A stretch of 64,000 nucleotides of DNA, taken from positions 23,985,608 to 24,049,607 of the forward strand of contig CM046868.1 of the NCBI GenBank assembly GCA_025617745.1, written 5' to 3'. The notes under the pieces are model-generated. The model was not told the origin of the DNA. It worked only from the letters and a program-made list of their open reading frames with translations, and ran no database searches. Source of the stretch: Heliocidaris erythrogramma (taxonomy: Eukaryota > Echinodermata > Echinoidea > Camarodonta > Echinometridae). This document shows positions 8,128 through 58,126 of this stretch, piece by piece. The translations under genes were made by a program, and so were the position numbers. How positions within the stretch are numbered: position 1 is the first letter of the stretch; each line of letters starts with the position of its first letter.

Positions 8128-8154
8128 TCATAATTATATATATATACATATATA

Positions 8155-8969: not shown

Positions 8970-9008
<39 letters not shown>
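8970..9008. repeat. (TA)n microsatellite
   Basis: Uninterrupted TA dinucleotides directly after the Tc1 derivative. Confidence 0.95.
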
Positions 9009-9161: not shown

Positions 9162-9233
9162 TGTCTCCGCCGGGAATCGAACCCGGGTCGTTGGCTTAGA
9201 ACGCCAATGCCTTAACCACTAGACCACGGAGAC
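9162..9233 (-). tRNA. tRNA-Arg(UCU)-like gene, left copy
   Basis: The minus strand folds as a full cloverleaf. Acceptor GTCTCCG pairs perfectly with CGGAGAC, D stem GTCT pairs with AGGC, the anticodon stem TTGGC/GCCAA encloses loop GTTCTAA (T33, anticodon TCT), and T stem CCGGG pairs with CCCGG. Discriminator A is followed by six T, a pol III terminator. Box A (TGGTCTAGTGG) and box B (GGTTCGATTCC) are intact. The D and T arms resemble metazoan tRNA-Glu more than tRNA-Arg (recalled). It may be functional or an amplified repeat-borne copy. Confidence 0.75.
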
Positions 9234-9617: not shown

Positions 9618-9689
9618 GTCTCCGTGGTCTAGTGGTTAAGGCATTGGCGTTCTAAGCCAACGACCCGGGTTCGATTCCCGGCGGAGACA
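9618..9689 (+). tRNA. tRNA-Arg(UCU)-like gene, right copy
   Basis: Reverse-complement twin of the left copy, with the same perfect 7-bp acceptor stem, anticodon TCT in a 7-nt loop, and TTTTTT at 9690-9695. No difference in the 72 nt was seen between the two. This means either recent inverted duplication, gene conversion across the palindrome, or selection on both. Confidence 0.75.
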
Positions 9690-10938: not shown

Positions 10939-11572
10939 ATGGCGGATGACGATTCGATGCCGAATGGAAGCACGGCGAACGGTGTTGCAGCTCCTGCGGG
11001 GAACTCACCGGTTCACGGTGGTCAGGCAGCCGATAGTCAAGTCGTCTTTCGACCCAATAGCAAAAACAATGATCATGATGATGGCGATGTCGAAACGAGA
11101 CTGGCCGATAAGGCGAAGGAGGCTGGCGACGAAGATGGAGCCAGTGCAGATAGCAACGTCGAGCTCAAGCGCGAGATCTCGCTCTTTGGCGGCGTCGCGG
11201 TCAACGTGGGCGTCATCATCGGGTCGGGCATCTTCATCTCGCCGAAGGGTGTCCTAATCGGATCCGGGAGCGTCGGCATGACCATGGTCAACTGGTCCAT
11301 CTGCGGCGTCTTCTCCATGGTCGGTGCCCTGTGCCTTGCCGAACTTGGCACCATGATCCCGTCATCGGGAGGCTTTTACGTCTACGCCCAGCAGAGCTTC
11401 GGTAACTTTTGGGCCTTCTTGTTGCTTTGGACAATGAGCGGGATGATGCAGCCGGTGGCCATTGCCGTGATCTCGCTGACTTGTGCTCAATATATACTTG
11501 AACCTTTCTTCATGATGGCCGAATGTCACCCGCCGGGTTCGGCCATCAGTATACTCGCTATATGTGCCCAAT
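10939..11572 (+). CDS. SLC7 transporter, variable coding exon 1A
   Basis: Begins at ATG 10939 (G at +4) with an in-frame TAA at 10918-10920. It ends before GTAAGTAC, leaving one base (phase 1). It encodes 211 residues. Residues 1-75 are a long acidic, low-complexity cytosolic tail. [11 protein letters not shown] then leads into TM1 with GSGIF at 95-99, followed by TM2 ([14 protein letters not shown]), TM3, and an extracellular loop with Cys196 in AECHPPG, the position that bonds the heavy chain in this family. TM4 starts at the exon end. No partner exon 2 was found in the 11 kb that follow, so it would have to splice to exon 2B or 2C downstream. Confidence 0.9.
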
Positions 11573-14500
11573 GTAAGTACAAACATTCATTTTCATACTA
11601 CATTACAAATCTCTATTATATTGGTCAACCAATATTCATAAATTAGAATGAAAAAAAAATTTAAATAAAAGCATTCATTTTCACTTTACGCCATTATGAT
11701 ATTAGTCAACCAATAATTTAATGATTTGGTATTTTTGAAAATTACTGTCTATGCTTACACTATAATAATCTTGACTGCATAAAATATACTTGGAGAAAAT
11801 TACAGAGGTAGACCAAGGAGGTACTCGGCAAGCTAGTACCCCGGGCTAGTACCTCCTTGGGTAGACAAATGCCTAATTAAAAGGAGGGAGAGAGAGAGAA
11901 ATAGGGATGAGAGAGACAGAGGTGAGGCATAATCTGTAGTCTTGACCAATCTTTTGTTTGTATCCAGACTGTCCTAAATTGCACCCTTCCGACTTTCATT
12001 CAGTCCGAGTATCACAGAAAAGGTTAATCCTGAAAATTGCTTCTTTGTCCCGCACTGAACAATACATTGAATACATTCACTACATGTACCTTAGTCAATG
12101 GCTCAGTCCGAAATGGAATGATGAACCCAAAGCAAAGGGAGGTCACAAGACTGAAAACCTTCACTTTTAAGTACCAATGGCCCTATTGTATCGATATGTA
12201 TTAGGCCTACTGTAATGTCATTCATGGTCAATATTATGAATGGATCATTATTTTTTTTTCATATCTACCGGTATTGATATAATATGTGATGGTGATTTTG
12301 ATGTTTGATTAATGAACACATTATTAATTAAATATCATAATTGATAGGATTGAAGTAAATTGAATATATCATAAAGAAATGTGAGAAAATTACAATGCCC
12401 CGACCGGGATTCGAACCCGGGACCCTGGATTACATGACCAGTGCTCTACCAACTGAGCTATCCGGGCTCCCGTCGAAGCACAGTAATAATCTCACATATA
12501 GCCCCTCTCTTTCCATCGAGCGTAGGGGGTACATCCATACCAATTCCATGCGTAGGCTATATAATGGCCTACCAATGAGACAGGTCTTCCCTCTAAAGTC
12601 GGGCAAATCCATGCCAACGAATTTCTATAGAGGACAATTTGAATTTGTAATTAAATATCATAATTGATAGGATTGAAGTAAATTGAATATATCATAAAGA
12701 AATGTGAGAAAATTACAATGCCCCGACCGGGATTCGAACCCGGGACCCTGGATTGCATGACCAGTGCTCTACCAACTGAGCTATCCGGGCTCCCGTCGAA
12801 GCAAAGTAACAATCTAACAACAAACACATAATTCGGGATCAAGCAGCTAGCAGCCAAGCAGAGCGAGTGAGCGATATAATACGTACACATATGAATGTAT
12901 ATATTTTGTATGATAATTGAATTTTAATTCACTTTTTCATTTAAAAAAAAGTACAAAGTACAATATTATACGCTACCAGTTTGTTTTACCTGAGACGTAG
13001 ATCCAAAATACTTATAACCCAAGTAGTGAGCAAAGATCAGTGTAATTCTAGTTGTACTTTGAAGTAAATTTAAGTAGATTTTATTTAAAAATTGCTTCTC
13101 CCTACTTCCAAACAATAATATAGAAGGCCGTTGTTGATTAATCGCCGGTAACGCATACACATGTCGAATTTGATTTTTTTTAATTGTTAAAACTGTTCTT
13201 CAGAATTAGGCCAATGTTAGAACTTACACGATAAAGGATTCAAACTTCACAGCATAACTGTTGATAGAGACCGTGTTGAAGTGCATCGCAAACACAGTTC
13301 TCAAGAAGGGGTGGGGGGGGGGGGGCGTTGCTGGTGCGACGCCTGCGAGTTGTTTGTATATCTGCCCTACATTTTCGCAAAACCTTTTAGTTCATGTTTT
13401 CAAAATGTACCTTCTCACTCGTCATAGCCACAAGTTGACAGAACAATCGAAATAGCAGACCAGGATTCCAGGATAACTACCCCCTGGAACAACTACAGTG
13501 GAACCTCTTTATAACAAACTCATTAGCACCAAGGAAATTTCCTCTTTATATCGAAAGTTTGAAACGTTGTTGTATCAGGGCTAAAAACAATAGAATACAA
13601 AGAAGTGGGACAGGCAAAATTACCTTGTTATAACAGTGTTCTTTAAAACGAGGTTCCACTGTAACTCCTCTGGACTTCTACCTCCTATAACAGCTACCTG
13701 GACATAATCTATACCCCATCCCTCCCGAAGACCTACCCCGAACATCTACCACCCCCCCTTTTTTTTAGAAAACCTCGCCCGGAATCTATACCCCAGAACA
13801 ATTACCTTGGGTTTGAATCCTAGAACAATTATGTACAAAATGTAGGTATACCCCAATTACATGTACCCTTGCAGTGGCGGATCTACAACGGGGGAAAACC
13901 GGCCCGTGCCCCCTCTTTTGAAACCCAGCTGGCATACTGTACATTAAGTACACAATTTTTAAAAAATACCCCCTTAATTGTGCACTTTTCCGGCTCTGTG
14001 CCCCCTCTTTACAAAATCCTGGATCCGCCCCTGGCCTTGTAATCTATCCTATAGAACATCCAAACCGGGCATGTAAACCCGGACAGCTATCCACGGACAA
14101 CGAGCCCTCAGGACAACAACCCCATACTTGTAGTAGCTCCCTCTTGGACCACTATAGTAGGGGCTAATTGTCCGAGGGGGTAATTACCCTCCAGGGTGGG
14201 GTAGTTTTAATAGTTGTAATCAGGGGATATGAGTAGACGAGGAATTCAGTATGGTCCAACTAGGATAAAGTACTTTTAACTGAGATAAGGATATGTACAT
14301 GACTGTATACCATGACGACCACCTTTGTAGAAAGGCCATCATGCATGCATCATATATATATATATATATGTATCACTCTTTAGAACTGCATGCTATATTT
14401 TCTATACTCTACATTATGAGAACTGCCACCTGTTAAACCGAACCAATCCTCGCGTTTTCCCTCGACCTAGTGGATGGGATCTTCTACGAACTGAAAGAAA

Positions 14501-17500: not shown

Positions 17501-20500
17501 TGGTTGCTCAGTGCTGTTGTACAATAGTCAACTCCACAGCCTGAGATTAAGTATCGTCAAGGCCCGGATGAAATAGAATTTGTGCCTGCAAACTAACACT
17601 AATAACACATCTACTTTTTGTGCGGACGATAATGGGCATAACGCATTTGGTAATGATGTTAGCCGTTGACCTTGGCTGTGAGACAGATTGACCTCACCAG
17701 TGGTCTGTTTCTAGCCTTACTTCAAGACGCAGATTCCCGGTCTTTTACCAAATTCCTTAGCCTAGGATCCCCCTCTCCCTCCTGTGCAAAAGAAACACGG
17801 ATAGCGAATGGAGGCTGCTACTACCATGGATAAACCTCTTTGGATATAGATATATATATACAACCGTTCTATGGTACTCTTCTACCAGTAGGGGTTTAGT
17901 CTCCATACGCCCAGACTAGACATTTTATTGATGATGGTGTGGGGGAACTCCATTAGCCTTGGAGCTAGGCTATTAACCTCCCATTCTGTAAGTGCTTCTG
18001 ACCTCTTGCAAATGACTATTTCCCATATTCCATCGTACGGCCCTGACACAACACAATGACAAAGGAGTAGTGAACAAATATTTTTTCTGGGGAATAGGAG
18101 GAAATACTAATTTCGCTTGGAAGTTAGGCTAACCGACCCTGTCCGAAGTCATACCATGCTGTGTTCAAGGAGTTTGGTATTTCCTCTTCTCAATCTCAAT
18201 CTCAGACGAAAGACCTTACAGAAAAAAACAAAAAAATAGTTAAAACTGATTTCAAAATCTGCCGTCGTTTGGGTTGACACAATTTATTTTTCATAAAATC
18301 TAGGCCGTACACGTTTGGATGCAGAAACCATAGTCGGTCAGAGCATGGACCCTACCATAGGGTCAATGGTATGTGTCAGCTAACTTGAAATTCATCAGAT
18401 GCACTACACTTGTCAGTGTGCTCCATTTTTTACAATAAATTTCTTTTCTTGAAGTATTGCACTTCAAATTAAAAATGATAGTAGTGATATGTAATAAATC
18501 ACTTGGTCGACCAGTTTTTAAGCAGGTGACTCAAATTAGCTTGACCATGGGAAGTTTGGGTAGTTTTCCCCACAGGCCGGTCAATATTGTGGTTAAAAAG
18601 GGGCAGTGATACAAAACAAAAAGGCCGCTCTACAACTAATGTGTCCCGTCGCTCCTCTACTTGAAGTTTAGTCCCTGTCCGCCTCTGAGCCGAAATCATA
18701 CTGACGATACAATACCTTTCATACAAGGTTGTAAGTCAAAGCAAAGGCAATGCACTTGTGTCCTTTAGCTTGACATAAGGTCCCTCGGATAGGAACTTGA
18801 AACCATAGATCGAACGATTACTTACAAGCGTATCTCGTAGGAGACAGGTGGGAAAATTGACTGTTGTGTACATCGCGCTTCGCTGTGTGGGTTATTACGT
18901 AACTAATTCCTCATCGAATTAGTAGGAGATTACTCAGATAATCAGATTCCGTAAAGTTCATTGTTACTGAAAACTTCATAAGATCATCCCGAATTTTGAC
19001 CAAAATAAGAGAAAAAAATCCCACAACTTAATTAAAAAACCGCACAATTCTTTCAAACATGCAGATTTTAAAGAAAAATGCGTAAGCCTAAGAATTTGGT
19101 AATGAACAAGTAATGCGAGGATGTTATTTGGTCTGTTTTATGTTATCGAGTATTGAAAAGAAATTGTTCTGACATCTTGGTTTTCTTCTTTTTTTTTTTG
19201 AAGCCAAGTATTTTATGCTTGATTTGCTGACTTGAAATGATAGTTCTAATTTGTGTTTCCATCATAAACAAAAAATCCTTTTATTTCGTAACCAGTCGAA
19301 AAATAACAGGGAGTAATATTACCCATGTGACACCCTCTTGAATCCAAGTTTCAGGCAAACCATTGGCTATGACTCGCAAATAAGTATACGCAAGACACTT
19401 GCCTACATTTTTTTAAACCAACATTCTACCTACCCATTATCCGCAAAGTTGAGCCTGTACATCAAACGTTTACTAGATTTCGATTAATCGCAAATCAGAG
19501 GTGGGCTGTATTGAACAGGAAATGGAAGAAGAAAAAAATCACGAATACATGTACCAATCAGTGACGCATTGCAGTGGCGAATCCAAGCCCGTTGGGGGGG
19601 GGGGGGGGGGGGGGGACAAGTCTGGGAAAATCTCTGAAAACATGCCTTTCGTTGTCTAAAATTGCTGCCGGTTGCACAACTAGGGGTATACTTTTTTATG
19701 TCGGGATGGGTTTTCCGGAGAGGGAAATGTGCCCCGTGTTGAATCCGCCCCTGCATGAAAATGTGTTTTACTGCTGGTTAGTAGTGGCATGCATCTGTCG
19801 TGATTAATCTACTTCATTTCTAATGGCATGTTAGGCTCTGAAGGTCAACTGAAAGTCACATACAAGTCACAATACATACAGTGTTCATCCATGCTCTTAT
19901 CATATGCCCATAACTCTGTGTAAATGTCTCAATCATCAGTGCGTCTGAGCTTGAAATGCCCGTTGCACACATTGGGTCATTTCATTGACGGAGGGCTACG
20001 TCATCGACTGGCGCTGTCTTTGACGCGCCTTGTGAAAAAGATGTCGTACAAGAAATGAATGCACAGTGAACAGTTTAAACAATTGCGCTGAAAGATTTTT
20101 GCATGCACTAAACTGCCTTCACAGGCTTTATTAGCGCAGGTAATGAGGCAATCGAAATGTCGCCCCGCGGTGCAACGGGATAGTGCCATGATGTGCATCT
20201 GTTGCGATTGATCTGCTTTCGGCTCCTGAGATTTAATTTGAGCTATCCATGTTTTTGTCATTATGGATATTACTGTCTGCGATTGTAATCAAATTATTTT
20301 CACGGATTAAAGCTTGTAACCTGGAAATTAGACCAAGTTCACGCATCTTGTGTGTACAACCGGTCTGTATACGTTCCTATATTTATATTTTCTCATCACT
20401 CATACATCTCTCATGGAACCAAAATAACATAACGGCAATATTCAGTTCTGGTATAGGTGAAAATAATTTATGAGCTTTCTCATTTTTAAATGTCAGTTTT

Positions 20501-23133: not shown

Positions 23134-23174
<41 letters not shown>

Positions 23175-27540: not shown

Positions 27541-27590
<50 letters not shown>

Positions 27591-42500: not shown

Positions 42501-42850
42501 ACTACTACTACTACTACTACTACAAAAACCCCACCACCAACGACTACTTCTACTACTACAACTACTACTACTACTACAACAATACTACCACCAATAACAA
42601 CAACTACTACTACTACAGCAACAACAACACCCACCAACAACTACTACTACTACTTCTACAATAACACCACCACCAACAAACTACTACTACAACAACACCC
42701 CCACCCCCACCAACAAATACTTCTACTACTACAACAAAGACAACAACTACACATGTACTACTATTACTACTACTACTACTACTACTACAACAACTACTAC
42801 TACTACAAAAACTACTACTACTACTACTACTACTATTACTACTAGTACTT

Positions 42851-42891
<41 letters not shown>

Positions 42892-48466: not shown

Positions 48467-48514
<48 letters not shown>

Positions 48515-51500
48515 CTAGTACTAGTACTAGTAGCAGTAGTTGTAGCAGTAGTCGTCGTCGCTCTAGAAGGAAGAATGCTGTAAATTGTAAAACGGACGTC
48601 CATCCTCTTAAGGAGTTGGGGGATACGGGCAAAACAGGAAAACAGATACAATGAAAATACCTCAAATGTTTTAGGATAGGGAGCCGGTCATATGGTCATC
48701 ACAAAACAGAGAGAGAGAGAGAGAGAGAGTGTGTGTTTGTTATGACAATAGGGTGACAAGAAAAACTTTGCAGCCTTTTAAATGGAGGAATCGCATGGAT
48801 ATTGACTCCCACTCGTCCCCTCTCCATGATGTCCGTGAATAAGATTTTTTTTTAAATAAACTTTTTTATATTTGATGCTTTTATTCTGCTTTTATTTCAT
48901 TTTTGTTATTGTATTTATTCCTGTTCATTGTTATTAAACGCTGCCAAATCATTTATTATGAGTTTCGTTTTGTAGTATAAAAAAATGGAAATTCTGAAGT
49001 CGTTCAGACAATTTCACATTCAGTTGATTTTAATTATTTATTGTATTTACGAAAAATCGACTATAGTCCAAAATGTCTTTGTCGTCTTACTTTTCACATT
49101 ATACTCTATCTAAAAAAAGAGTGCGATATGACTAAATATTACATTATGTTTATGTATTTTGATTTGCATATAGCAATGTGTCCATGTATATCACACTTTA
49201 TTCGCAGGTACTCCCTCAACATTGTAGTGGAAGAATTGAAAGACCCTTACAAGTAAGAATTCATCAAATTTGAAAAGGAAAATAAATTTCTGTAGTCGTA
49301 AGATGTTGTATTCAACTCCTTTTTAAAAATCTTTATATACAGTTATCTCAAACATAACCAAAGGAAAATATATTTTTGAAATATCTTTACCTGCATGACG
49401 CATGTAGAAAAAAACCCCGGAAATTTCAGCATGATTAATTTTCTTTATTCAAATAAACAATTAAGTGCATTGTATTGTTAAACATCTTTTATTTATTCCA
49501 AATTTATTTTCTGCAAAGAGATTGATTTATCGACGTTTTTATTCATGATATTACAGGATGAAACTACGATTTCGTGAATAGCTCTGTTAACGAGGATTAC
49601 TTAATGCCAAAGAATACTGTGAAATCGATTGCAACATTCGGTAGCAATTATTTATCTATTTCTGGCCATATCTTACCGTGTACAGCTCACGTGTTATAAT
49701 CATGATCATATCTATTTGTGATAAGCCTTTAAGAAAGAATTTCCGAGCCAAAATCGACCAAAGTTGAATGAGCAAGAAGTTGAATTATTCTTGACGCTCG
49801 TGTTTTCTTTTTAAGGGTCAGAGTTTAATGCGATAACATTGCCATGATACCGTCGATCCTTAAAAAAATTGTGGAGATAATATAGATAATGTGTATGTAT
49901 ATTAGGATTATTTGTTTTATAGATATCTTTCTACACCTACCCAGTGGCGGCACCAGGGGGGGGGGGGCATGGGGGCATTTGCCCCCCAGTCAGAAGCTTT
50001 GCCCCCCAGTTGCCCCCCCCCCCCAATAATTATCGGAGTGAAAAAAAAATGAAAGGGTGGAAAATTTTTTTTTACTTGGCGCCATCTTTCTTGTTTTTTT
50101 CTTTTTTTTGCTTGCTTGTCAGGGAATTATGGAGGCAAGCTGGGCCCCATAACCCCTTTACTGAGCGTTTTTTTGAAGTTTGGCGAGAATTTTTTTTTTG
50201 TCCCTACCCCCCCCCCCCCCCCCCCCCCACTAAGCGACTTTTTGAGAAGCTGGCGAGACCAAAAAAATACGGGTCTACATTTTGACTTTCATTTTCCTGC
50301 ATCCGCCCCTGCCCCCCCTACATTTTCTTTTGCCCCCCATTTGCCCCCCCCCCCACTTTAAAAATCCTGGTGCCGCCACTGCACCTACCACGAATAATGC
50401 ATTTTATTCCATATCATAACTAACTTTAGGCCTACTTCGCAAGGTCGCGGAAATCAATGTATGCGATATTGTACAATATTGTTACTGTCCTTACGATAGG
50501 CTTGTTACTTATGTTGTATACAATGATTGTAATCATATCTCAAAGTGGATCGCCTATGTTATATATTATGATCACGATTATTTTAATTGAAGGCAACCTT
50601 GTATGACCCAATCTTGCCACAACTAATAAAATCATACATTTATACATAAAGAGTATTATGATATAAATATATATATTTTAATTTTGTTGCAAATTTCAAT
50701 TATTTTATACTACATGTATTCGCCTCAATAATGACATTTTTCCAAACTAGGGTATAATCTTACTTGAAAAGGGGGCGAAAATTCAGAGCGAAATGACACA
50801 AAGAAAGAGGGAGAGTTAGAATGATTTAGCGGATTTTAAAGATCAGAAAGAGGACAATTTCTCCAAACGGGGAGGATAAATGTTTGACTGCAGGATGTAC
50901 ACTTTTTCGGCTATTGAAAATAATTTCAAGAGTGCCTTTCAAGATTCCAAAAGATTCCAAGTACTTTTAAAATCAGAATTATATACAACGGAGTCTCCAT
51001 GGAACATTACTAAAATTGTCTTCAATGGAGTCTACACACTTAGAAATAAAGGTACAATTTTGCACCTTTTTGGGTGCAACTTTGCACCCTAAGAAGCTTT
51101 TTGCACTTTTAAAGGTGCAGTTACTGTAGCTACAATTTGCACCCTTAAAGGGTGTAGAGTTGTACCCTTTACAAAAGGTACAAATTTGCACCCTTTTGGA
51201 TGCAAAGTTGCATGTTTTATGGTGCAAACAGGCGTCAAAGGGTGCAAGCAAGAACAAAAACGTGCATTTTTGCACCCTTTTCATGTAGGGTGCAAGATTG
51301 CACCCAAAAAGGTGCTGCCAGTGTTGCATTTAGGGTGCAAACCTAAACCTTTTTTTCTAAGTGTGTAAGGATAGATCATTCCCAAGTAGGCCTACATTCT
51401 ATCAAAGACAATTACCTCTTTATAGTTATCGGAGGGGTACTTTGGGTAAATTTAGGTGTCTTGGCGGATATTATATCTTAGGAGGGTATACTCAGGATGG

Positions 51501-54500
51501 GGTTGGGGGCTGGTAGTTGCCGTGGTGCTAGCTAGTCCAGGGTAGATCATCTGGACACAATAAAATGAGACTTATATAACTACCGTTTGAAAGAACATTA
51601 CCTTGCACTCACCATTTTTCATCTGCAGTTTGGTATATGATACATAATGACGGTTCGTTATAATAGCGGTATTGTTGCAAATGATATGAATTTATCTGAA
51701 CCTCTCAACAGAAACCTACCGCGTGCAATCGTCATCACCATCGTCACTGTGACCATAGTCTATGTTCTTACAAACATCGCCTACTTCGCTGCTCTATCAC
51801 CAGAGGAACTCCTAGCTTCAAATGCTGTCGCAGTGGTCAGTATATAATGCAAATTAATGTATAGGAATATAGAGGCAGAGCTATAGTAAGTGGGGTTTTT
51901 ATACCCCCGCCAAACAAAGTTTGAAGGGGGTATATAAGAATCAGCGTACGGTCGGGCGGTCGGTCCGTTGCAAATCTGGCGTATCGAATTACATGCACTT
52001 CCTCATTTATCGAGCATTGCTCATGAAATAAGACATACATGTATTGTTTCAATGTGTGGCAAACTGCGTTGCCATGGTAACGACATATGGCATTAAAAGG
52101 GGAAAATATTGCATATCAAACCACTTCCTCATATTTGGAGCAATGCTCAGGAAATTTGGCGCACACATTGGGGCGGGGGTATTCTAGCTTTAGTAGGCAA
52201 GCAAAGAAAAAAGTTTTTTTTTTAAATATGTGTATGCTGGGATGATCCTAGGGAAATGGGCCCCATCCCCCATAACCCCATTTCTGCATGATGATATTTA
52301 TTGCATATAGTCCCTTTTCGAAGTGATATAGATACATGAATATGACAAGAAACTTTTAATCCATAACAAATGTCTAATAATCCAACGTTTCAACTGAAAA
52401 CATAAGCATGGACAAATTTTGTTGATGCTCTTGTAGTATGATGTTTTGTTTTCAAGGGTTACTATTATTCAGACATGTATTATCATACCATGGAAGTGGG
52501 CTTAAAGTTTATCTGCCCCTCCGCAATATGAAAATGAATTATGTTCTATGTGAAAGGCTCTGTATTGTACAATTTCTCTTCAGTTATTTTTAAAGGAGCA
52601 TATAACAGTTATTAATAGTAGACATAGTTATTTTTGGCAGAGAACTTCAGTAACATTTCGAAAATATTAGTCTATTTACTGGTATTAATTCTTTGTGTTC
52701 TATTTTGACAGACATATGGGGCCAAAGTATTGGGAAGCTTTGCCTGGATCATGCCTGTATCTGTGGCTCTTTCCACTTTCGGTTCGGCTAATGGAAATAT
52801 GCTGACCTGCTCACGGTAAGAATATTGATGCTACCAAATTGGGCCATTTGTGTAGCCCCCTCCAACCCCTACCTATTTATCATTGAAACTTGCCCCTTCT
52901 CCTCCTCCACCTCCTCCTCCTCCACCTCCTCCTCCTCCTCCCCCTCCTCCACCTCCCTCCTCCCCCTCCTCCTCCTCCCCCTCCTCCTCCCCTCCCCTCC
53001 TCCTCCCCTCCTCCCCTCCTCCCCTCCTCCCTTCCTCCTCCTCTCCTCCCCCTCCTCCTCCCCTCCTCCTCCTCCTCCTCCCCTCCTCCTCCTCCTCCCC
53101 TCCTCCTCCTTCTTTTCTTCTTCTTCTTCTTCTTCTTCTTCTTCTTCCACCACTTGTTTTTTTGCTCAGTATGCTACCAAATTGGGCCATTTGTGTAGCC
53201 CCCTCCAACCCCTACCTATTTATCATTGAAACTTGCCCCTTCTCCTCCTCCACCTCCTCCACCTCCTCCTCCTCCACCTCCCCCTCCTCCACCTCCCCCT
53301 CCTCCTCCTCCCCCTCCTCCTCCCCTCCCCTCCTCTCCTCCCCCTCCTCTCCTCCTCCCCTTCCTCCTCCCCTCCTCCTCTCCTCCCCCTCCTCCTCCCC
53401 TCCTCCTCCTCCTCCCCTCCTCCTCCTCCTCCTCCTCCCCTCCTCCTCCTCCTCCTCCTTCTTCTTCTTCTTCTTCTTCTTCTTCCACCACTTGTTTTTT
53501 TGCTCAGTATGCTACCAAATTGGGCCATTTGTGTAGCCCCCTCCAACCCCTACCTATTTATCATTGAAACTTGCCCCTTCTCCTCCTCCACCTCCTCCAC
53601 CTCCTCCTCCTCCACCTCCTCCTCCTCCTCCCCCTCCTCCACCTCCCCCTCCTCCTCCTCCCTCCTCCTCCCCCTCCCCCTCCCCTCCCCTCCTCCCCCC
53701 CCTCCCCCTCCTCTCCTCCTCCCCTCCTCCCCCTCCTCTCCTCCTCCCCTTCCTCCTCCCCTCCTCCTCTCCTTCCCCTCCTCCTCCCCTCCTCCTCCTC
53801 CTCCCCTCCTCCTCCTCCTTTTCCTCTTCTTCTTCTTCTTCTTCTTCTTCTTCTTCTTCTTCCACCACTTGTTTTTTTGCTCAGTATCAAAAGAATATCT
53901 TAGAACTTTTTTTATTGAGGTGCCTAATTTTGAAACTGCTACCTTTAGACAAATTTTTAATGTCTTCTTGATTTTGGTTATGTTTGATAATTGCAAAGAT
54001 TCCATTCCAAAATTCCAAAGTTTGGGCAAATTGTATACCACATACAAATGCTTGCTCCTACTACTTTTTTCAAGATATAGAGCTTACAAATAAGACAAAG
54101 TCGCTCACAATAAAAAAGCTAACATTTGCAACATTTCTTTTCTCTACAGATTATTCTTTGTAGGTGCTCGTGAGAAGCATCTTCCCAACCTCCTATCCAT
54201 GATCAACATTGAGAGAAATACACCTGTGCCATCATTATTATTTACAGTAAGTCACTAGAACATTTTGAATAAGAAAAAGGAAGGTTGTCCGTGGAATGAA
54301 TGATGATTCCATGATCAACATTCCATGGACATGTTTATCAATTTTCCTCAATATAAAGCCGTTGTAAAATTATCTTTAGCAAAATATTCCAGATCACTTT
54401 GGACATCAAACATGAATCATTGGGAAAATCGTGTTATATCTGACTATAAGAATGTAGTTAGATTAGGATGATGATCAGTTCAATTTTTTTTTAAGGGGAT

Positions 54501-54508
54501 ACACCCTA

Positions 54509-54544
<36 letters not shown>

Positions 54545-57500
54545 TATCTTATAATATAATACACTAAGGATTTCAGGCTCTTTTTTTGGTTCAAATAGGC
54601 TCCTCCCCTGGCCCTTTCGGTCCCCGCCTTTTGGTACCCACGGGTGGGGAAGGGTTCTTAGGGTGGTGGGAGGCACTTCTTGAGGGCTGACGTCCCGTCC
54701 ATATTTCATAAATTCATTTTTAAACATTGAATTTCCGCAGGGAGTAGGCCTAATAATTCCACCAACCCATGAAGCGGGTTTGTAGCTTCAGGCCCAGCCA
54801 ACCCATATACCTTTCCCTGTGAAGGGGAGCTATGCCAAAGAACAGCATGGCCATATATCCGCATGGCTTCAGTGTACAGTGCAGTATTATACACACGTGT
54901 TAGATCGTTTGCACGTACGTGTACAGGTCATCATACAGGTATAGAGTTACATCATTTGAAGCTTCATGGTCACACACACAGTTTAGTGTGTATGTTTCAC
55001 GACCAGTTCGCTACCGGTAATTTGAAGAAAATTCCTTCGAAAATATTTCCATAATGATTATGAATACGTATAATGATATTAATCCCTTCTCCCCTCGCCC
55101 TGGGGGTGATGGGATGACAATGGAATGGGGGGAGCTGGAGGGGGGGGGAGTAGTAGGGGAAAGTCAATCCGTCGGTCCTCCCAAGACCCATATAAGGGGG
55201 CCATAATCCCCCTGAAAATAAAATGACAAATTCATTTTTTCTCATTATTGCATCCTTTACAGGGGATGTACCGCTAATTATGGATGTTACTCTGAGTATT
55301 AATAAACCACAGAAACATGGCAAGATCAAATCGCTCCCTCTAGGTCTATGCATGGATATTCTACTCGAATATTATTATATCCATATCATCAATTTTCTTC
55401 AAGATGCAAGCTTTGGATAAATAAGACATATTCACGTGATCAGGGGCGAATCCAGAATTTAGTATAAGGCGGGGAAAACAAGTGCAGGTTTGTCAACTTT
55501 TGGAAAAGGCAGACCTAGAAAATTCGCTCAATAGGGGGTGGTTATGGGGGTCCCTCCATAATTCTCTGACAAGCAAAAAAAAGGTTTCATTCTAAAAGGG
55601 GGCGGGGGCACAATCAACAAAAGGGCGGATCGTCTATGGTCAAAATGCATACTTTCCTGCCATTGAACGGGGGGGGATGGCACGGGCCAGAAGCACCCCC
55701 CCCCCCCCCCCCCCCCCGGTCCGCCAATGGACATGTTGTAAATACTTCTTGGTAAAAATAACTTTACCCGACTTTTTTATTTATTCGCTTGATTATTGTA
55801 ACAAATATACGGTACGGTGATTAACCATAAACACAGCTAGCGCCCGTGGATGTCCACGGGCTGCTTCTGCTAGTATATATATATAACAGTAATTGCAACT
55901 TCAAAAAGACCCCAAAAACTAAACAAACAAGGGTGTACATAATGGAGTATGAGAACATGATACCGGTACATGTTACATATAGTTCACGTCTTTCTGAAAG
56001 TAGTTTGCCAGCCCAAGAATCATGTGTATACTTAAGAAGAACAGTAACAGAAATCTTTCACATTTACTGAATATGTATACTCTGATATGATAACAATGCA
56101 TGACGCTGTCAACTCTTTGGTTATTTGCTATCATCCTATCAATTGTTAGCCCTTTATGATCACTGACAAACCTGCCACATAATTACTTTGAATATATTTG
56201 CCAGAGTTTAGGGATTCACAAAGTGAGTTTTGATATGCCAGCATTGGGGTACTGACACATTGCTGCATTCATATATCTAACCTAGGGTAAAGTGATTTTT
56301 TTCTCAAGTGGATAATGTGAAAGGATATATAATATCGATGTTGCTACAGGAGGAATTGGCCTAGTAATTTCTGGGCAAAATCGCCCAAAGCAACATCACA
56401 GTCGGCAAAAAAAAAAAAAAAAAAAAATCAACTGTTACTTTTAGACAATGTTTTTTATTCATGATACAATCGCATGATGAAAACTCGATTTCATCTCCTT
56501 GTTTTATTTGGTCTGTTCATCTTATTGACAGTCTTTACTAACCATCTTATACTCGTTGGCTGGAGATGTCTTCACCCTTATCAACTACTTCAACTTCGTG
56601 ACATGGTTCAGCAGTGGTCTGGCCGTAGCTGGTCTAATCTGGTTGCGATACAAGGAGCCTGATAGACCCAGACCATACAAGGTATGACTTACAAGGAAAT
56701 GGTATATTATAATGGACATGATATATGATAAGATGCTCCATCGATGTATATCAAGTTTCAGGATTTTTTGTCACTCCATGGCTGAGATCAGGGGGGGGGG
56801 ATTCCTAAATTTGTTCACCGTTTTTACCAAAAAACAAGCAGTTCAGGGCCTTAGTAATATATTTTGTCATATTGTGTGCAATTCTTGTTATCATTCTTTC
56901 TTGAAAGAGTTTCGAATGCAAAACAAAATAATGAAAAGTAACAAGGTAGACGTTTTGAACATTTCACAATAGTACCTCCTTAAATACACCAGGGCTGTGT
57001 TTAAAACATATGTTATCAATAATGAGTTGCAATAACTAATGTAAGCTACTGAAATCGGTGCATTTGATTGGCTGTGAGCAATATTCTTTGTAGAATTTTG
57101 GCACTTGTTTTTGATAACTAGTTTATGAATGAGGGCCTAGTCCTTTTTCCCTCTTGACTGTGTATATCAAACACTAGTCATTGTGGCAGACATTCATCCT
57201 CCCTTTCTTTTTATCTTTTTTTCTTGACTCAATAGGTAAACATTTTTCTTCCAATTATCTTCGTCATCGCCTGCATCTTCCTCATCGTCATGGGCACCAT
57301 CGCCGCCCCGATCGACACCGTCATTGGAGTTGCCATCATGTGCTCTGGAATCCCAGTCTACTTCTTCATCGTGAGACCCAAGAAGAAACCCGAGATCATT
57401 GTCAAAGCCAATGGTAAGTGGTTGTCAGCGGTGGATTCAGGAGCCAACAGCCGGCCTATGCCCCCCTTATAACACCCAATGTGACATACCTAAGGAAAAC

Positions 57501-58126
57501 AAAAGATAAATGTTCTCCCCCCCCCCCCATTTGTGTTTGTGCAAATTATCTTACCAGCTATGTATGTATAATATTACTCACATAAATGAACATATCAATA
57601 GCCATATGTTAATTACAAATGTACATGGTAAAGGAGAGCTCCCCCCCCCCACCCCCAAAAAAAAGAACAAATAAATAAATAAATAAATAAAAAATAAATT
57701 AATTTAAAAAAAATAAAAAAAAATTAAAAATTAAATAAAAATCACTCTGACCTATTTTTATTTATTTAGTTTGTCTTATATGAACACTGGTTTTCAAGAA
57801 GGCCCTGCACATTGACAAATATAACATTGATAATACAATACTAGAACATTAATAAAATTATTAAAAAAAAAAAAACATACAAAATCATGATCAAACAGTC
57901 AAAATGAAATTCCAATACCATGGGTTTCTCCTAGAAGGGAAATACACGTCTACCTCTAAACAGAGGTTACCCCTCCCCTATTTTTTTAAGGAGTGCAGGG
58001 GATTTGATGAGGAGGATAAAAAATACTATTACGTTCATATTCTCTATTTTTCTATCTGTTCTCTCCTCAGATTTCGTTACCCACTGGTTCCAAAAACTGA
58101 TGCTTGTCGTCGCGGAAGAAAGATAG
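10939..58126 (+). CDS. SLC7-family amino acid transporter light chain with variable 5' exons (whole locus span)
   Basis: This is the locus span, made of the separate exons listed below. The product is a 12-TM APC-fold exchanger of the SLC7 light-chain (LAT) group, expected at the plasma membrane and disulphide-linked to an SLC3 heavy chain. Family hallmarks visible are GSG(I/V)F in TM1, VGALC(L/Y)AELG in TM2-3, a Cys in the TM3-TM4 loop, FENSFEG and [12 protein letters not shown] around TM6, [28 protein letters not shown] in TM8, [13 protein letters not shown], and a short C-tail ending VVAEER. Joined exons give 535, 493 or 514 residues depending on the first exon, normal for LATs. LAT2/Asc-1-like motifs dominate, but y+LAT-type features (EPDRPRP) are also present, so substrate class is not assigned. 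Confidence 0.9.
11573..12329. other. Intron after exon 1A, first part
   Basis: Contains a near-perfect hairpin at 11815-11864 (CCAAGGAGGTACT paired with AGTACCTCCTTGG), also rich in ctagtacc. Otherwise AT-rich with no exon signature. Confidence 0.5.
12396..12467 (-). tRNA. tRNA-like segment, Thr(UGU)-type anticodon but A33, copy 1
   Basis: The minus strand has intact A and B boxes (TAGCTCAGTTGG; GGTTCGAATCC) and perfect D and T stems. The acceptor stem has one G-G mismatch. The anticodon stem ends in a T-T mismatch and the loop is CATGTAA, so the universally conserved U33 is A. The arm resembles tRNA-Thr(UGU), but these defects and its place in a repeat favour a tRNA-derived pseudogene or SINE head. 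Confidence 0.5.
12719..12790 (-). tRNA. tRNA-like segment, copy 2, anticodon position reads TGC
   Basis: Differs from copy 1 by one base inside the anticodon (loop CATGCAA in place of CATGTAA). Naive reading would change isotype from Thr to Ala. It has the same acceptor mismatch and the same missing U33, so decoding function is doubtful. Confidence 0.45.
12821..13495. other. Intronic, nothing recognised
   Basis: AT-rich with a G homopolymer at about 13310-13325. No exon-like segment. Confidence 0.4.
13496..13661. mobile_element. 166-bp MITE with CAGTGGAACC ends and TA duplication
   Basis: Terminal inverted repeats CAGTGGAACCTC and its complement (about 22 bp with mismatches) are flanked by TA at 13494-13495 and 13662-13663. 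Ends of this form are typical of pogo/Tigger-type Tc1-mariner MITEs (recalled). No coding capacity. Confidence 0.8.
13662..14240. repeat. Degenerate ACCCC-GAACA repeats with an inserted MITE
   Basis: Words such as ctaccccctggaac, ctaccccgaacatctacc, ataccccagaacaattacc and, inverted, ggggtagttttaatag recur with loose 25-30-bp spacing. This looks like an old decayed tandem repeat. It is interrupted by the element at 13872-14033. Confidence 0.55.
13872..14033. mobile_element. 162-bp hAT-like MITE (CAGTGGCGGATC ends)
   Basis: Ends are CAGTGGCGGATC and GGATCCGCCCCTG, an inverted pair typical of short hAT-like elements. A clean 8-bp duplication is not visible. The interior is the usual 'ccccctcttt' type filler. 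Confidence 0.6.
14241..19571. other. Long intronic stretch, largely unique, no exon found
   Basis: About 5.3 kb, AT-rich, with a short (AT)n at 14350-14370. A hairpin at 15899-15951 pairs CCAGAAGGGCGTTAACTC with GAGTTAACCCCCTTCTGG. I looked for a 126-nt partner exon for 1A with the SLC7 TM4-TM5 pattern and saw none. Confidence 0.4.
19572..19753. mobile_element. 182-bp hAT-like MITE with a long G run
   Basis: Ends CAGTGGCGAATCC and GAATCCGCCCCTG form an imperfect inverted pair. It contains 20 or more consecutive G at about 19595-19614. No matching 8-bp flanks were seen. Confidence 0.6.
19754..20449. other. Intronic, nothing recognised
   Basis: No exon signature and no clear repeat. Confidence 0.4.
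20450..20840 (-). repeat. Dispersed ~0.4-kb repeat, copy 1 (inverted)
   Basis: Its reverse complement aligns over nearly 400 bp with 34050-34430. Shared words include gagggcatttgaagagc, aagaaactctctgaaagc, attgagttctg and gaaagctca. Read on the minus strand both copies give a short similar peptide (KKLS then WERLI). This suggests a decayed transposon gene, but no family was recognised. Confidence 0.7.
20841..22527. other. Sequence upstream of first exon 1B
   Basis: No TATA consensus near the exon and no gene seen. Any promoter for exon 1B would lie in its last few hundred bases. Confidence 0.4.
22528..23035 (+). CDS. SLC7 transporter, variable coding exon 1B
   Basis: Starts at ATG 22528 with an in-frame TAG at 22519-22521 and ends before GTAAGC in phase 1. 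It encodes 169 residues with a short N-tail (about 30 residues, against 75 in 1A and 55 in 1C). Visible in order are [12 protein letters not shown]1 with GSGVF at 50-54 (Val where 1A and 1C have Ile), [15 protein letters not shown] in TM2-3, PSSGGHYAY, a distinctive TM3 ([11 protein letters not shown]) and Cys152 in DPCYINY. It is the most diverged of the three first exons yet has no stop or frameshift. The likely partner is exon 2B, 11.7 kb downstream. Confidence 0.9.
23036..25019. other. Intron after exon 1B, first part
   Basis: A (GA)n tract lies at about 23125-23170 within a purine-rich stretch to 23335. Nothing else was recognised. Confidence 0.45.
25020..25335. other. GC-rich patch of unknown nature
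   Basis: Markedly richer in G+C than its surroundings (gcgtcgaacgcgcccg, gagctcgagctcagg). A 65-residue Arg-rich frame has no family resemblance. Repeat-like, but no second copy was noticed here. Confidence 0.35.
25456..25721. mobile_element. Short foldback element with ACCCACGCC ends
   Basis: ACCCACGCC at 25456 and GGCGTGGGT at 25713-25721 are inverted ends. The interior contains ggatttgcaccaaattttc, a phrase typical of dispersed marine-invertebrate repeats. A small hairpin follows the right end. Similar architecture recurs at 27914-28844 and 51901-52182. Confidence 0.55.
25722..26367. other. Intronic, nothing recognised
   Basis: AT-rich sequence without exon or repeat signatures. Confidence 0.4.
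26368..26780. repeat. 61-bp unit: three direct copies plus one inverted, with CCCTAA motifs
   Basis: The unit (acataccaaggtcaaatag, ttaaactgg, ttttca, aagtgattggacttgtagaaa) occurs at about 26415, 26475 and 26625 and inverted at 26712-26770. Between the last two, and at 26390-26402, are aaccctaaccct-like telomere-type words. The inverted fourth copy makes a foldback end. Confidence 0.8.
26781..27529. other. Intronic, nothing recognised
   Basis: No exon signature. A short GT run near 27292. Confidence 0.4.
27520..27588. repeat. C homopolymer and (AT)n microsatellite
   Basis: A run of C ends at about 27537 and is followed by more than 40 bp of TA repeats. Confidence 0.9.
27914..28844. mobile_element. 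0.93-kb element with four ~150-bp internal direct repeats
   Basis: Ends ATGCTTCCGCC and GGCGGAGGCAT are inverted. After a (GTCC)n tract at 27957-27980, a unit starting ttcgttctcgcg and containing aaaaccgtttggcgg, acttggcccatgtat and gggagggacgat repeats at about 27984, 28129, 28280 and 28431. Each unit closes with runs of aggtcaaaggtca. The last copy is the most diverged. No coding frame. Confidence 0.7.
28845..29943. other. Intronic, nothing recognised
   Basis: Begins with a small hairpin (ccgaccgcgcatggtcgg). The rest has no exon-like segment. Confidence 0.4.
29944..30129. mobile_element. 186-bp hAT-like MITE with near-perfect 8-bp target duplication
   Basis: Ends CAGTGGCGAAGATACAGG and CCAGGCTACACCGCTG form an imperfect inverted pair. 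The flanks tgcccgtt (29936-29943) and tgtccgtt (30130-30137) agree at 7 of 8 positions, fitting a hAT duplication. Confidence 0.7.
30138..32207. other. Intronic, no gene
   Basis: AT-rich. 31178-31197 (atgggtacccggtag) matches the body of the SINE at 59494-59850 and may be a SINE remnant. A T/C/G homopolymer block lies at about 31873-31890. Confidence 0.4.
32208..33463. repeat. ~290-bp tandem direct duplication split by a Tc1-like derivative
   Basis: About 32208-32513 and 33170-33463 are direct copies (tcctgtggca, gttgctgccca, acttccgactgtta, ggcgacaggttattcgg). Between them sits the Tc1-type element at 32514-33169. Copy 2 continues without the element and so represents the empty arrangement. 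Confidence 0.8.
32514..33169 (-). mobile_element. Tc1-like deletion derivative with transposase remnant
   Basis: Preceded by TA, it begins CAGTGCGTATAAAAAAAAAC. Inverted arms are about 32563-32703 and 33026-33165. The outermost 50 bp of the left end have no partner on the right. On the minus strand about 32885-32970 encodes [15 protein letters not shown] then MIRRAVREM, the C-terminal signature of Tc1-family transposases. All else is deleted. Confidence 0.75.
33629..33995. repeat. Interleaved inverted repeats (A-B-A'-B')
   Basis: A, 33629-33726, is inverted at 33807-33908. B, 33730-33803, is inverted at 33917-33995. The four blocks alternate instead of nesting. A and B each contain an actttcgaaaaataa-like word, so they are themselves related. 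No coding sequence. Confidence 0.85.
34050..34430 (+). repeat. Dispersed ~0.4-kb repeat, copy 2
   Basis: Opposite-orientation partner of 20450-20840. It lies just upstream of exon 2B. A short frame ends in KKLS, then HWERLI, shared with copy 1. Confidence 0.7.
34436..34555. repeat. Degenerate telomere-like CTAACT/AACCCT repeats
   Basis: ctctaactctaactctaaa, aaccctaaacccaaccct and similar words fill this stretch. Too degenerate and short to be a telomere. Confidence 0.6.
34744..34869 (+). CDS. SLC7 transporter, coding exon 2B (alternative)
   Basis: Acceptor tttttgtacag precedes 34744 and donor GTTTGT follows 34869. Length is 126 nt, phase 1 to phase 1. The split codon becomes Phe, Val or Ile after exons 1A, 1B or 1C, all suitable inside TM4. 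It encodes the rest of TM4 ([11 protein letters not shown]), a short loop with [11 protein letters not shown], and TM5 ([16 protein letters not shown]), the standard SLC7 pattern. It is open throughout and differs from 2C at about half its residues. The donor is weaker than the others (GTTTGT). It lies between exons 1B and 1C, as expected if an exon 1 plus exon 2 module was duplicated. Confidence 0.85.
34870..37789. other. Between exon 2B and exon 1C
   Basis: No exon 3-like segment (FENSFEG/YSGLF pattern) follows exon 2B here, so 2B has no private 3' half. A CT-rich tract lies at about 35710-35765. A TTTATAG word at 37675 is the only weak core-promoter-like motif before exon 1C. Confidence 0.5.
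37790..38360 (+). CDS. SLC7 transporter, variable coding exon 1C
   Basis: ATG 37790 in a good context (CAACAATGG) has an in-frame TAA at 37748-37750. It ends before GTAAGTAC in phase 1. It encodes 190 residues: an acidic, Asn/Asp-rich cytosolic tail to about residue 52, [13 protein letters not shown]1 with GSGIF at 74-78, [22 protein letters not shown] in TM2-3, and Cys175 in VECPPP. It is closest in sequence to 1A and to vertebrate LATs. Exon 2C follows after only 576 bp, so 1C-2C with the common exons is the most compact and probably default transcript. Confidence 0.92.
38937..39062 (+). CDS. SLC7 transporter, coding exon 2C
   Basis: Acceptor ttccacag, donor GTATGT, 126 nt, phase 1 to phase 1. 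It encodes the TM4 end ([12 protein letters not shown]), the loop [11 protein letters not shown] and TM5 ([16 protein letters not shown]). Interchangeable in frame with 2B. Inclusion of both would add a 42-residue repeat of TM4-TM5 without breaking the frame but would disrupt topology, so mutually exclusive use is expected (inference). Confidence 0.9.
39200..39821. mobile_element. 622-bp hAT-type non-autonomous element with exact 8-bp duplication
   Basis: Ends CAGGAGCGTCGCTAG and CTAGCGACGCCCCTG are inverted. TGCATGAG flanks both sides exactly (39192-39199, 39822-39829), the hAT target length. The interior carries (gcgag)n words and C/T-rich blocks and no transposase. Confidence 0.85.
39830..41224. 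other. Intron 2, no gene
   Basis: AT-rich with a G homopolymer at about 40838-40855. No exon signature. Confidence 0.45.
41225..41400 (+). mobile_element. Truncated SINE
   Basis: aatactcccgaaggagtggagaa at 41309 and the tail gaagcgctatagaaatccag at 41361 match the corresponding segments of the SINE at 59494-59850. The tRNA-like head is missing or unrecognisable. It ends 40 bp before the exon 3 acceptor region. Confidence 0.6.
41443..41536 (+). CDS. SLC7 transporter, common exon 3
   Basis: Acceptor tttatgcag, donor GTAAGA, 94 nt, entering in phase 1 and leaving in phase 2. It encodes [12 protein letters not shown], then [15 protein letters not shown]: the extracellular loop before TM6 and the unwound TM6 segment. 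The Phe of GLF is the gating residue position in LATs (family knowledge). The first exon shared by all predicted transcripts. Confidence 0.93.
41627..42897. repeat. 1.27-kb trinucleotide array (ACT/ACA/ACC)
   Basis: Almost pure NAC/ACN triplets, with an internal higher-order duplication: about 41985-42260 and 42310-42560 are near-identical, including acacatgtactacta. Frames of up to 339 residues (poly-Thr, poly-Tyr, poly-Leu) are repeat translations. Confidence 0.95.
42920..43047 (+). repeat. Left terminal heptamer array (TTTCGAG)n
   Basis: About 18 heptamers. Two TATCGAG variants appear together twice about 42 bp apart, indicating a six-heptamer higher-order unit. Confidence 0.95.
43050..44633. 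repeat. 1.6-kb foldback inside the composite element
   Basis: 43050-43370 is inverted at about 44340-44633 (tgccccctgccccctagatac, gagcgaagcgaccgagc, aaaatggtttttaatgaaa). The centre at about 43950-44015 is also palindromic (CCAGAAAAGCGCTATC with GATAGCGCTCCTCTGG). CAGTGGCGTATCTAGG-type hAT-like ends face outward at both edges (43061-43077 and 44606-44622). Confidence 0.8.
45684..46600 (+). repeat. Six-copy tandem repeat rich in TTCGAGTTT/AAACTCGAA
   Basis: Units begin at gtgtacagcc near 45684, 45839, 45994, 46181, 46366 and 46551, so spacing goes 155, 155, then about 186. The longer units have gained a ~30-bp insert (gagcattttcgagtttcaaactcgaaa) that is itself palindromic. Each unit also has gggcaagaaagacgtaactcgaa. 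The same motif appears singly at 47430-47475 and is the sequence of the terminal heptamers. Confidence 0.9.
46601..47655. other. Right part of composite element, no gene
   Basis: A C-run and A-run lie at about 46738-46777, and an (ATA/ATC)n patch at 47236-47325. No transposase signature. Confidence 0.5.
47656..47776 (-). repeat. Right terminal heptamer array (ACTCGAA)n
   Basis: About 17 uniform heptamers, the reverse complement of the left array, ending in cgaagtttagcaacacac. Confidence 0.95.
47798..48560. repeat. Second trinucleotide array (ACT, then GTA/GTT/GTG)
   Basis: A short (ACT)n stretch at 47798-47862, then about 600 bp of GTA/GTG/GTT triplets from 47965. Poly-Val, poly-Ser and poly-Cys frames are artefacts. 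Confidence 0.95.
48561..49207. other. End of intron 3
   Basis: A (GA)n tract at 48709-48728. Otherwise AT-rich, leading into the exon 4 acceptor. Confidence 0.5.
49208..49252 (+). CDS. SLC7 transporter, common exon 4 (45-nt microexon)
   Basis: Acceptor ctttattcgcag, donor GTAAGA, phase 2 in and out. It completes the Trp codon of exon 3 and encodes [14 protein letters not shown], the end of TM6 and the conserved EE(L/I)xxPxxN intracellular segment. Too short to be found by length, but its sequence, frame and sites fit exactly. Confidence 0.9.
49253..49941. other. Intron 4, first part
   Basis: AT-rich, nothing recognised. Confidence 0.45.
49942..50381. mobile_element. 440-bp hAT-type non-autonomous element with exact 8-bp duplication
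   Basis: Ends CAGTGGCGGCACCAGG and CCTGGTGCCGCCACTG are perfect 16-bp inverted repeats. CACCTACC flanks both sides (49934-49941, 50382-50389). The interior is tgccccccat-type filler. Perfect ends and flanks indicate a young insertion. Confidence 0.9.
50390..51034. other. Intron 4, middle part
   Basis: AT-rich, no exon signature. Confidence 0.4.
51035..51365. mobile_element. 331-bp MITE with TA duplication and repeated GCACCCTT motifs
   Basis: Ends CACACTTAGAAA and TTTCTAAGTGTG are flanked by TA (51033-51034, 51366-51367). The interior repeats TTGCACCCTTT or its inverse, or close variants, about a dozen times. A Tc1/mariner-type MITE is the simplest reading. Confidence 0.8.
51366..51711. other. 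End of intron 4
   Basis: Leads to the acceptor cctctcaacag before exon 5. An upstream CTGCAG at 51623-51628 is also acceptor-like, but the sequence after it does not encode the family pattern in a usable frame with exon 4. Confidence 0.5.
51712..51835 (+). CDS. SLC7 transporter, common exon 5
   Basis: Acceptor ctctcaacag, donor GTCAGT, 124 nt, phase 2 to phase 0. The first base completes Lys, then [13 protein letters not shown]7 ([12 protein letters not shown]) and the loop [13 protein letters not shown], one of the strongest LAT signatures. The GTCAGT donor is a less common but acceptable site. The reading continues to an early stop if unspliced. Confidence 0.92.
51901..52182. mobile_element. 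Short foldback element with ATACCCCCGCC ends
   Basis: ATACCCCCGCC and GGCGGGGGTAT are inverted ends. Inside, cacttcctcat...gagcattgctcatgaaat and its variant near 52123-52156 are an internal direct repeat. Same general architecture as 25456-25721 and 27914-28844. Confidence 0.65.
52183..52711. other. End of intron 5
   Basis: AT-rich, nothing recognised before the exon 6 acceptor. Confidence 0.5.
52712..52815 (+). CDS. SLC7 transporter, common exon 6
   Basis: Acceptor ctattttgacag, donor GTAAGA, 104 nt, phase 0 to 2. It encodes [20 protein letters not shown] and [15 protein letters not shown]: the end of EL4 and TM8 with the small-residue STFG.NG motif that lines the substrate path in LATs (family knowledge). 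Confidence 0.93.
52829..53885 (+). repeat. Three-copy ~340-bp VNTR of (CCT)n/(CTT)n ending in acceptor-like CAG
   Basis: Units start atgctaccaaattgggcc at 52829, 53170 and 53509. Each holds about 200-250 bp of CCTCCT-type polypyrimidine, a (CTT)n block, ccaccacttgtttttttgctcag and then the next unit. Strand asymmetry is nearly complete. Pro- and Leu-rich or Glu/Gly/Arg-rich frames of up to 286 residues come from the repeat. Confidence 0.95.
54150..54246 (+). CDS. SLC7 transporter, common exon 7
   Basis: Acceptor tttctctacag, donor GTAAGT, 97 nt, phase 2 to 0. It encodes [19 protein letters not shown] (completing the Arg codon), then [12 protein letters not shown]: the intracellular loop after TM8 with the (V/A)GxREGHLP motif, here Lys for Gly, and the start of TM9. 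Confidence 0.93.
54247..56531. other. Intron 7 with simple repeats
   Basis: (TA)n at 54513-54542, G runs near 55140 and 55671, C run at 55697-55718. 55441-55735 starts CAGGGGCGAATCCAG and may be a degraded hAT-like MITE. An A run lies at 56406-56427. No exon signature. Confidence 0.5.
56532..56681 (+). CDS. SLC7 transporter, common exon 8
   Basis: Acceptor cttattgacag, donor GTATGA, 150 nt, phase 0 to 0. It encodes TM9 ([20 protein letters not shown]), TM10 ([20 protein letters not shown]) and [10 protein letters not shown]. The closing EPDRPRP motif is shared with y+LATs, whereas the rest leans to LAT2/Asc-1. An upstream start codon in the same region is in a different frame and unrelated. 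Confidence 0.92.
56682..57235. other. Intron 8
   Basis: 554 bp, nothing recognised apart from a G run at about 56790. Confidence 0.6.
57236..57413 (+). CDS. SLC7 transporter, common exon 9
   Basis: Acceptor ttgactcaatag, donor GTAAGT, 178 nt, phase 0 to 1. It encodes TM11 ([20 protein letters not shown]), APIDTV, TM12 ([16 protein letters not shown]) and a basic [13 protein letters not shown] start of the C-terminal tail, as in LATs. Confidence 0.93.
57414..58070. other. Intron 9 with (AAAT)n low-complexity tract
   Basis: A-rich (AAATA)n at about 57657-57745 after a C run. No coding signature. Confidence 0.7.
58071..58126 (+). CDS. SLC7 transporter, last coding exon 10
   Basis: Acceptor ttctctcctcag. 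The phase-1 split codon becomes Asp, followed by [17 protein letters not shown] and TAG at 58124-58126. The short amphipathic tail (THWxQKL, VV) is the expected LAT C-terminus. The whole joined frame closes without remainder for all first-exon choices, a strong check on every boundary. Confidence 0.92.

Follow-up and report, generated by a model that had tools for sequence, protein, structure and literature searches.

Within the window, by which we mean the whole 64,000-nt stretch of DNA that was analysed, lie 13 exons with homology to SLC7 amino acid transporters, which follow one another on the plus strand in the order 1A, 1B, 2B, 1C, 2C and then exons 3-10. There is no N in the 64,000 nt, and every intron is bounded by GT and AG. 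The exons are as follows.

Exon 1A: 10939-11572, + strand; first coding exon, 634 nt (211 codons plus 1 nt), SLC7 match
Exon 1B: 22528-23035, + strand; first coding exon, 508 nt (169 codons plus 1 nt), SLC7 match
Exon 2B: 34744-34869, + strand; second exon, TM5 region, 126 nt, profile match
Exon 1C: 37790-38360, + strand; first coding exon, 571 nt (190 codons plus 1 nt), SLC7 match
Exon 2C: 38937-39062, + strand; second exon, TM5 region, 126 nt, profile match
Exon 3: 41443-41536, + strand; shared, TM6 with the FSYAGW substrate-site motif; joins, alignment and profile match
Exon 4: 49208-49252, + strand; shared; joins and profile match
Exon 5: 51712-51835, + strand; shared; joins and profile match
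Exon 6: 52712-52815, + strand; shared; joins and profile match
Exon 7: 54150-54246, + strand; shared; joins and profile match
Exon 8: 56532-56681, + strand; shared; joins and profile match
Exon 9: 57236-57413, + strand; shared; joins and profile match
Exon 10: 58071-58126, + strand; shared last coding exon with the TAG stop; joins and profile match

The original prediction placed three intact, diverged first exons and two second exons 5' of a single set of exons 3-10 and read them as a variable-first-exon organisation. The arrangement itself is borne out: the anatomy of the locus is confirmed, and it is unusual. Exons 2B and 2C share 50% identity across 40 aa. The boundaries proved phase-compatible as foreseen, in that the first exons of 634, 508 and 571 nt each leave one base and both second exons are 126 nt long, and all six joins of an exon 1 to an exon 2 run in one open frame to the common TAG (58124-58126). 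Each first exon also has the ATG of its own that had been claimed for it, preceded by an in-frame stop 21 (1A), 9 (1B) or 42 (1C) nt upstream; no in-frame ATG lies between stop and start in any of them, and the start context is strong at all three ATGs (A at -3, G at +4).

Because 1C lies 3' of 2B, 2C is its sole exon 2 partner in cis. Inclusion of both second exons (1B-2B-2C-3) also stays in frame, giving 536 codons including the stop, so that frame alone does not enforce a choice between 2B and 2C and something else must prevent double inclusion. The 4,067 nt that separate 2B from 2C we take to be too far for simple steric exclusion, and incompatibility of U12-type introns was rejected as the cause of their exclusion after no U12-like donor or branch motif was seen in the three introns inspected. 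A nearest-acceptor rule would favour inclusion of both 2B and 2C, which counts against the variable-first-exon reading, as does the length of the introns that would have to be removed from 1A transcripts (23.2 or 27.4 kb).

Further exons were sought with a profile HMM built from the three window isoforms, LAT1 and the xCT consensus, which was run against the whole window translated in six frames and cut at stops into 2,752 pieces of 15 aa or longer. Among the best 35 matches, the top 13 are the 13 exons, all scoring at least 13.9 bits, and the next piece reaches 5.9 bits (E 0.61); since window proteins went into the model, part of the match to the true exons is built in, and decayed copies would have been favoured likewise. 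None of exons 3-10 is seen twice among these matches in the window. The claim that no private exons 3-10 follow 2B is upheld in this window, where the six-frame search detected none on either strand, and private exons 3-10 for 1A were likewise not detected on either strand. By the same search of the window, 1B is followed only by its own 2B and 1A has no detectable exon 2 of its own, an exon 2A having been found on neither strand, which counts against a variable-first-exon reading. Exon 4, the weakest of the 13, scores 13.9 bits and exon 10 only 18.8 bits; since such short exons score low though intact, they could escape the search once decayed or broken into fragments below 15 aa, and several lost long exons could hardly do so. 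A tblastn comparison over the window covered the first 80 matches by position, to about 56.9 kb, and the whole-window statement is that of the HMM search instead.

The introns and the 5' flank hold a variety of repeats. Intron 3 carries, at 41563-48568, long trinucleotide-like arrays and TTCGAG-type repeats set as inverted arms around about 4.6-6.2 kb; 168 nt of these arms are 90% complementary, others are 71-75% complementary, and a 155/186-nt tandem repeat (45677-46613) lies between them. The whole looks like a large fold-back element. In intron 6, a CTC/CTT-rich unit of about 340 nt is repeated about three times (52828-53887), starting 13 nt past exon 6. Between 1B and 2B (27983-28582) lies a tandem array whose units of about 151 nt resemble each other at 66-93%. 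The stretches 20441-20825, before 1B, and 34100-34448, just before 2B, match at 67% in inverted orientation over about 390 nt; this pair is probably an old mobile element. Two 172-nt copies at 12325-12496 and 12648-12819 are 98% identical, and each contains a tRNA-like sequence, called as tRNA-Thr(tgt) in one and tRNA-Ala(tgc) in the other; since the calls differ on near-identical copies, these may be tRNA-derived repeats. Two tRNA-Arg(tct) calls with the same Rfam score, at 9162-9233 (- strand) and 9618-9689 (+ strand), are both overlapped by copies of one reading frame. A 288-nt inverted repeat (8135-8422 and 8702-8989, 99% identical) surrounds a weak match to the DDE_3 transposase family, which lies on the minus strand (8441-8842, E 0.005, under the curated cut-off).

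Relation to known SLC7 transporters

Homology places the encoded protein among the LAT-type SLC7 light chains. The 1C-2C join is homologous end to end to LAT1 (6irs; query 35-513, 495.9 bits) and scores 517.2 bits against the xCT consensus, 486 against LAT2, 485 against y+LAT1, 480 against y+LAT2 and 452 against xCT. Further SLC7 chains follow with 434 (Asc-1), 400 (b0,+AT) and 230 bits (SLC7A13), and no chain named cationic amino acid transporter exceeds 77.1 bits. Taken alone, 1A finds the xCT consensus as its top match (144.0 bits, next 133.0), 1B finds y+LAT2 (137.5 bits, next 135.9) and 1C finds LAT1 (155.7 bits; LAT2 152.9). The best family for all three pieces is the NCBIfam L-type model TIGR00911, with 156.3, 156.7 and 175.2 bits for 1A, 1B and 1C, its cut-off of 701.8 applying to the whole protein. 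A scan of IMG/VR with exon 1C gave four pattern matches, none of them confirmed, and thus no relative there.

A tree of nine exon-1 rows was built from 1A, 1B and 1C together with LAT1, LAT2, y+LAT1, y+LAT2 and two xCT rows, the six references being presumably from vertebrate species. The window exons form one group against the six references with a moderate support of 88/92, below the tool's 95 mark, with a small reference set that includes two pairs of close relatives and a shorter LAT2 row. Within that group 1A and 1C are the closest pair (85/84). Three residues are common to 1A, 1B and 1C and absent from all six references; together with the grouping they suggest duplication within the lineage, and the three exons look like old in-lineage duplicates. 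The idea that three separate paralogues of known types were joined here by accident was set aside on the same two observations, whose support is moderate. The terminal branches of 1A (0.61) and 1B (0.74) are longer than that of 1C (0.36), which counts against the variable-first-exon reading.

Substitution patterns, splice sites and alternative readings

The first exons were compared pairwise by NG86 over 117 core codons. The dN/dS ratio is 0.16 for 1A-1B, 0.15 for 1A-1C and 0.32 for 1B-1C, with a dS of 1.2-2.2 that is saturated. Differences at codon positions 1/2/3 number 42/27/67, 30/24/66 and 48/25/57 for the same pairs. For 2B-2C, dN is 0.51 and dS was not computable. At the nucleotide level, a blastn match of the window with itself joins the first-exon regions only inside the exon cores (E 1e-8, 80 nt). 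GC3 is 0.66 in 1A, 0.69 in 1B and 0.64 in 1C, and the GC content of the window is 0.38. Forty columns are invariant in the six references, of which 1A keeps 34, 1B 33 and 1C 36; the losses of six and seven columns in 1A and 1B, against four in 1C, are counted against the variable-first-exon reading. When LAT1 is left out of the yardstick it keeps 40 of 47 invariant columns itself, with 40 kept by 1A, 38 by 1B and 41 by 1C, and when LAT2 is left out it keeps 40 of 49, with 39, 36 and 41 kept by the three window exons. By dN/dS and kept columns, 1A and 1B look to be under selection. The joins through 2B exceed those through 2C by five identities to LAT1, indicating that 2B is not a decayed partner.

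Splice sites of 1A, 1B and 2B were scored with a matrix trained on the gene's other exons. The donor of 1A (AAT|gtaagt) falls in the top 0.8% of GTs in the window, that of 1B (TCG|gtaagc, score 5.71) in the top 2.7% and that of 2B (AAG|gtttgt, score 6.34) in the top 2.1%, and the 2B acceptor in the top 1.2% of AGs. All four are inside the range of the gene's nine other sites (donors 0.06-5.7%, acceptors 0.5-4.1%). Eight of the nine other donors outscore those of 1B and 2B, a point against the variable-first-exon reading; so is the lack of a TATA-like box within 600 nt upstream of 1B or 1C, such matches being seen within that distance only at 1A (10353 and 10783). Taken together, the substitution pattern, the invariant residues and the usable splice sites appear as marks of selection or use on 1A, 1B and 2B. 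These marks sum over the time since the duplications, and the loss of 3' halves is not dated by them.

That last point bears on a reading in which only 1C-2C-3-10 is a gene, and in which 1A and 1B-2B are the 5' remains of tandem paralogues whose 3' exons disappeared too recently for these remains to have decayed. Tandem duplication and 3' loss are common events, and the longer branches of 1A and 1B would fit such a history. In a neutral simulation with 12% as many indels as substitutions, of which two thirds break the frame, the frames of 1A, 1B and 2B all survive with a probability of 0.48 when divergence is 0.5%, 0.23 when it is 1% and 0.05 when it is 2%, so that truncation within about 2% neutral divergence may have occurred and intact frames are insufficient by themselves against it. 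The same simulation gives 0.0005 at 5% neutral divergence, and two separate losses, both recent, would be needed; moreover, the splice sites of 1A, 1B and 2B are intact too, and the six-frame HMM search detected no remnant of exons 3-10 for them in the window. We regard recent truncation as unlikely, and it is the main alternative.

Alternatively, A and B might in reality be complete genes, the assembly having collapsed, deleted or misplaced their 3' halves. The introns are rich in repeats, which lends this some plausibility, yet the window is free of N, two clean losses would be required, and collapse requires near-identical 3' halves, whereas the exon-1 cores and the second exons differ by 36-50% in protein. 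An artefact of assembly or sampling is improbable on these grounds.

A third scheme, to which we give equally little credence, has a single far-upstream promoter and a non-coding leader, to which 1A, 1B and 1C are spliced as mutually exclusive cassette exons. Candidate acceptors lie upstream of 1B (22503, score 4.98) and of 1C (37536, score 7.70), both within the gene's acceptor range of 4.06-10.89, and these exons may thus follow a non-coding leader rather than start transcription. About 27 AGs are expected per 500 nt (3,479 in 64,000), however, and chance can produce scores of this size; near 1A the best AG, 320 nt upstream, scores only 4.27, little more than the weakest real acceptor. When 1A or 1B is spliced to either of two candidate 1C-leader acceptors, a stop follows at residues 177-233 in all four joins, so that inclusion of the 1C leader after 1A or 1B would have to be avoided. 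Chance reading frames, finally, are ruled out by homology and phase, the first exons matching each other in tblastn with E values of 3e-37 to 1e-54 and conserving their phase.

Proposed function and comparison with known systems

On balance, we consider a working variable-first-exon locus, in which a single LAT-type SLC7 light-chain gene has a cluster of variable exons at its 5' end, to be the somewhat more probable reading. The predicted organisation gains from the anatomy and from the marks of selection on 1A, 1B and 2B; 1B and 1C, given their candidate acceptors, may not be true start exons. The cluster would most likely have originated when the 5' end, or whole genes that later lost their 3' ends, underwent tandem duplication within the lineage.

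In the arrangement that we propose, 1A, 1B and 1C would serve as alternatives for the first coding exon, and each would probably have a promoter to itself. Promoter choice would yield a 1A or 1B transcript whose phase-1 donor is joined to 2B or 2C, or a 1C transcript joined to 2C only; 2B and 2C would be mutually exclusive, and either would lead into the single constant set of exons 3-10. More tentatively, and at somewhat less than an even chance, the locus might make up to five heteromeric transporters (1A-2B, 1A-2C, 1B-2B, 1B-2C and 1C-2C) through promoter choice and a regulated, exclusive exon 2, with the transcription start setting the transport specificity.

The placement of the exon boundaries suggests what would be exchanged. 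With helix limits taken from LAT1, 1A presumably comprises the cytosolic N-terminus and TM1-TM4. TM5 falls in exon 2, exon 1 stopping short of it, so exons 1 and 2 together correspond to TM1-TM5 and exons 3-10 to TM6-TM12 when the LAT1 helix limits are carried over in the alignment. The glycine-rich TM1 motif is kept as GSGIF in 1A, GSGVF in 1B and GSGIF in 1C. The TM3 equivalents of LAT1 residues 139/140/141/144, which we take to be part of the substrate pocket of LAT1 and xCT, read M-M-Q-A in 1A, M-M-L-Q in 1B and M-A-Q-S in 1C. TM6 (FSYAGW) and TM10 are constant because their exons are common to all joins. The swapped TM1-TM5 half would therefore carry the TM1/TM3 side of the substrate site against a fixed TM6, TM8 and TM10, and each front half may confer a different substrate preference. 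The 1A-2B, 1B-2B and 1C-2C joins all have a cysteine at the position of LAT1 C164, which we take to be the disulfide cysteine to the SLC3 heavy chain.

If the variants are expressed, a LeuT-type fold would be exchangeable by half in nature, and three TM1-TM4 modules with only 55-64% of their core residues in common would all have remained compatible with a single 3' half. Expression would also make these natural chimeras a direct test of the roles of TM1/TM3 and of TM6/TM10 in substrate choice, and the variable-first-exon genes would gain a membrane transporter.

One of the closest parallels is the UGT1A locus of vertebrates, in which tandem diverged first coding exons share one constant 3' set and the first exon encodes the substrate-binding half. 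As in UGT1A, several diverged first coding exons on one strand lie here 5' of one constant set, phase-compatible and with no private constant exons detected in the window; unlike UGT1A, this locus would encode a membrane transporter, with three first exons and an extra alternative second exon. In the clustered protocadherins and other genes with multiple variable first exons, the choice of a large first coding exon is linked to its promoter; the variable exon of the protocadherins covers almost the whole ectodomain, whereas the join at this locus falls inside a single membrane fold. Within the SLC7 family, alternative exons are found in SLC7A2 (CAT-2A/CAT-2B), whose mutually exclusive exons alter transport properties, but SLC7A2 belongs to the CAT branch and exchanges one short internal exon pair, whereas whole front halves would be exchanged here. 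The 1C-2C join resembles the light chains of SLC7A5, SLC7A8, SLC7A7, SLC7A6 and SLC7A11 (LAT1, LAT2, y+LAT and xCT) over its full length, and to our knowledge none of these light-chain genes has several full first coding exons.
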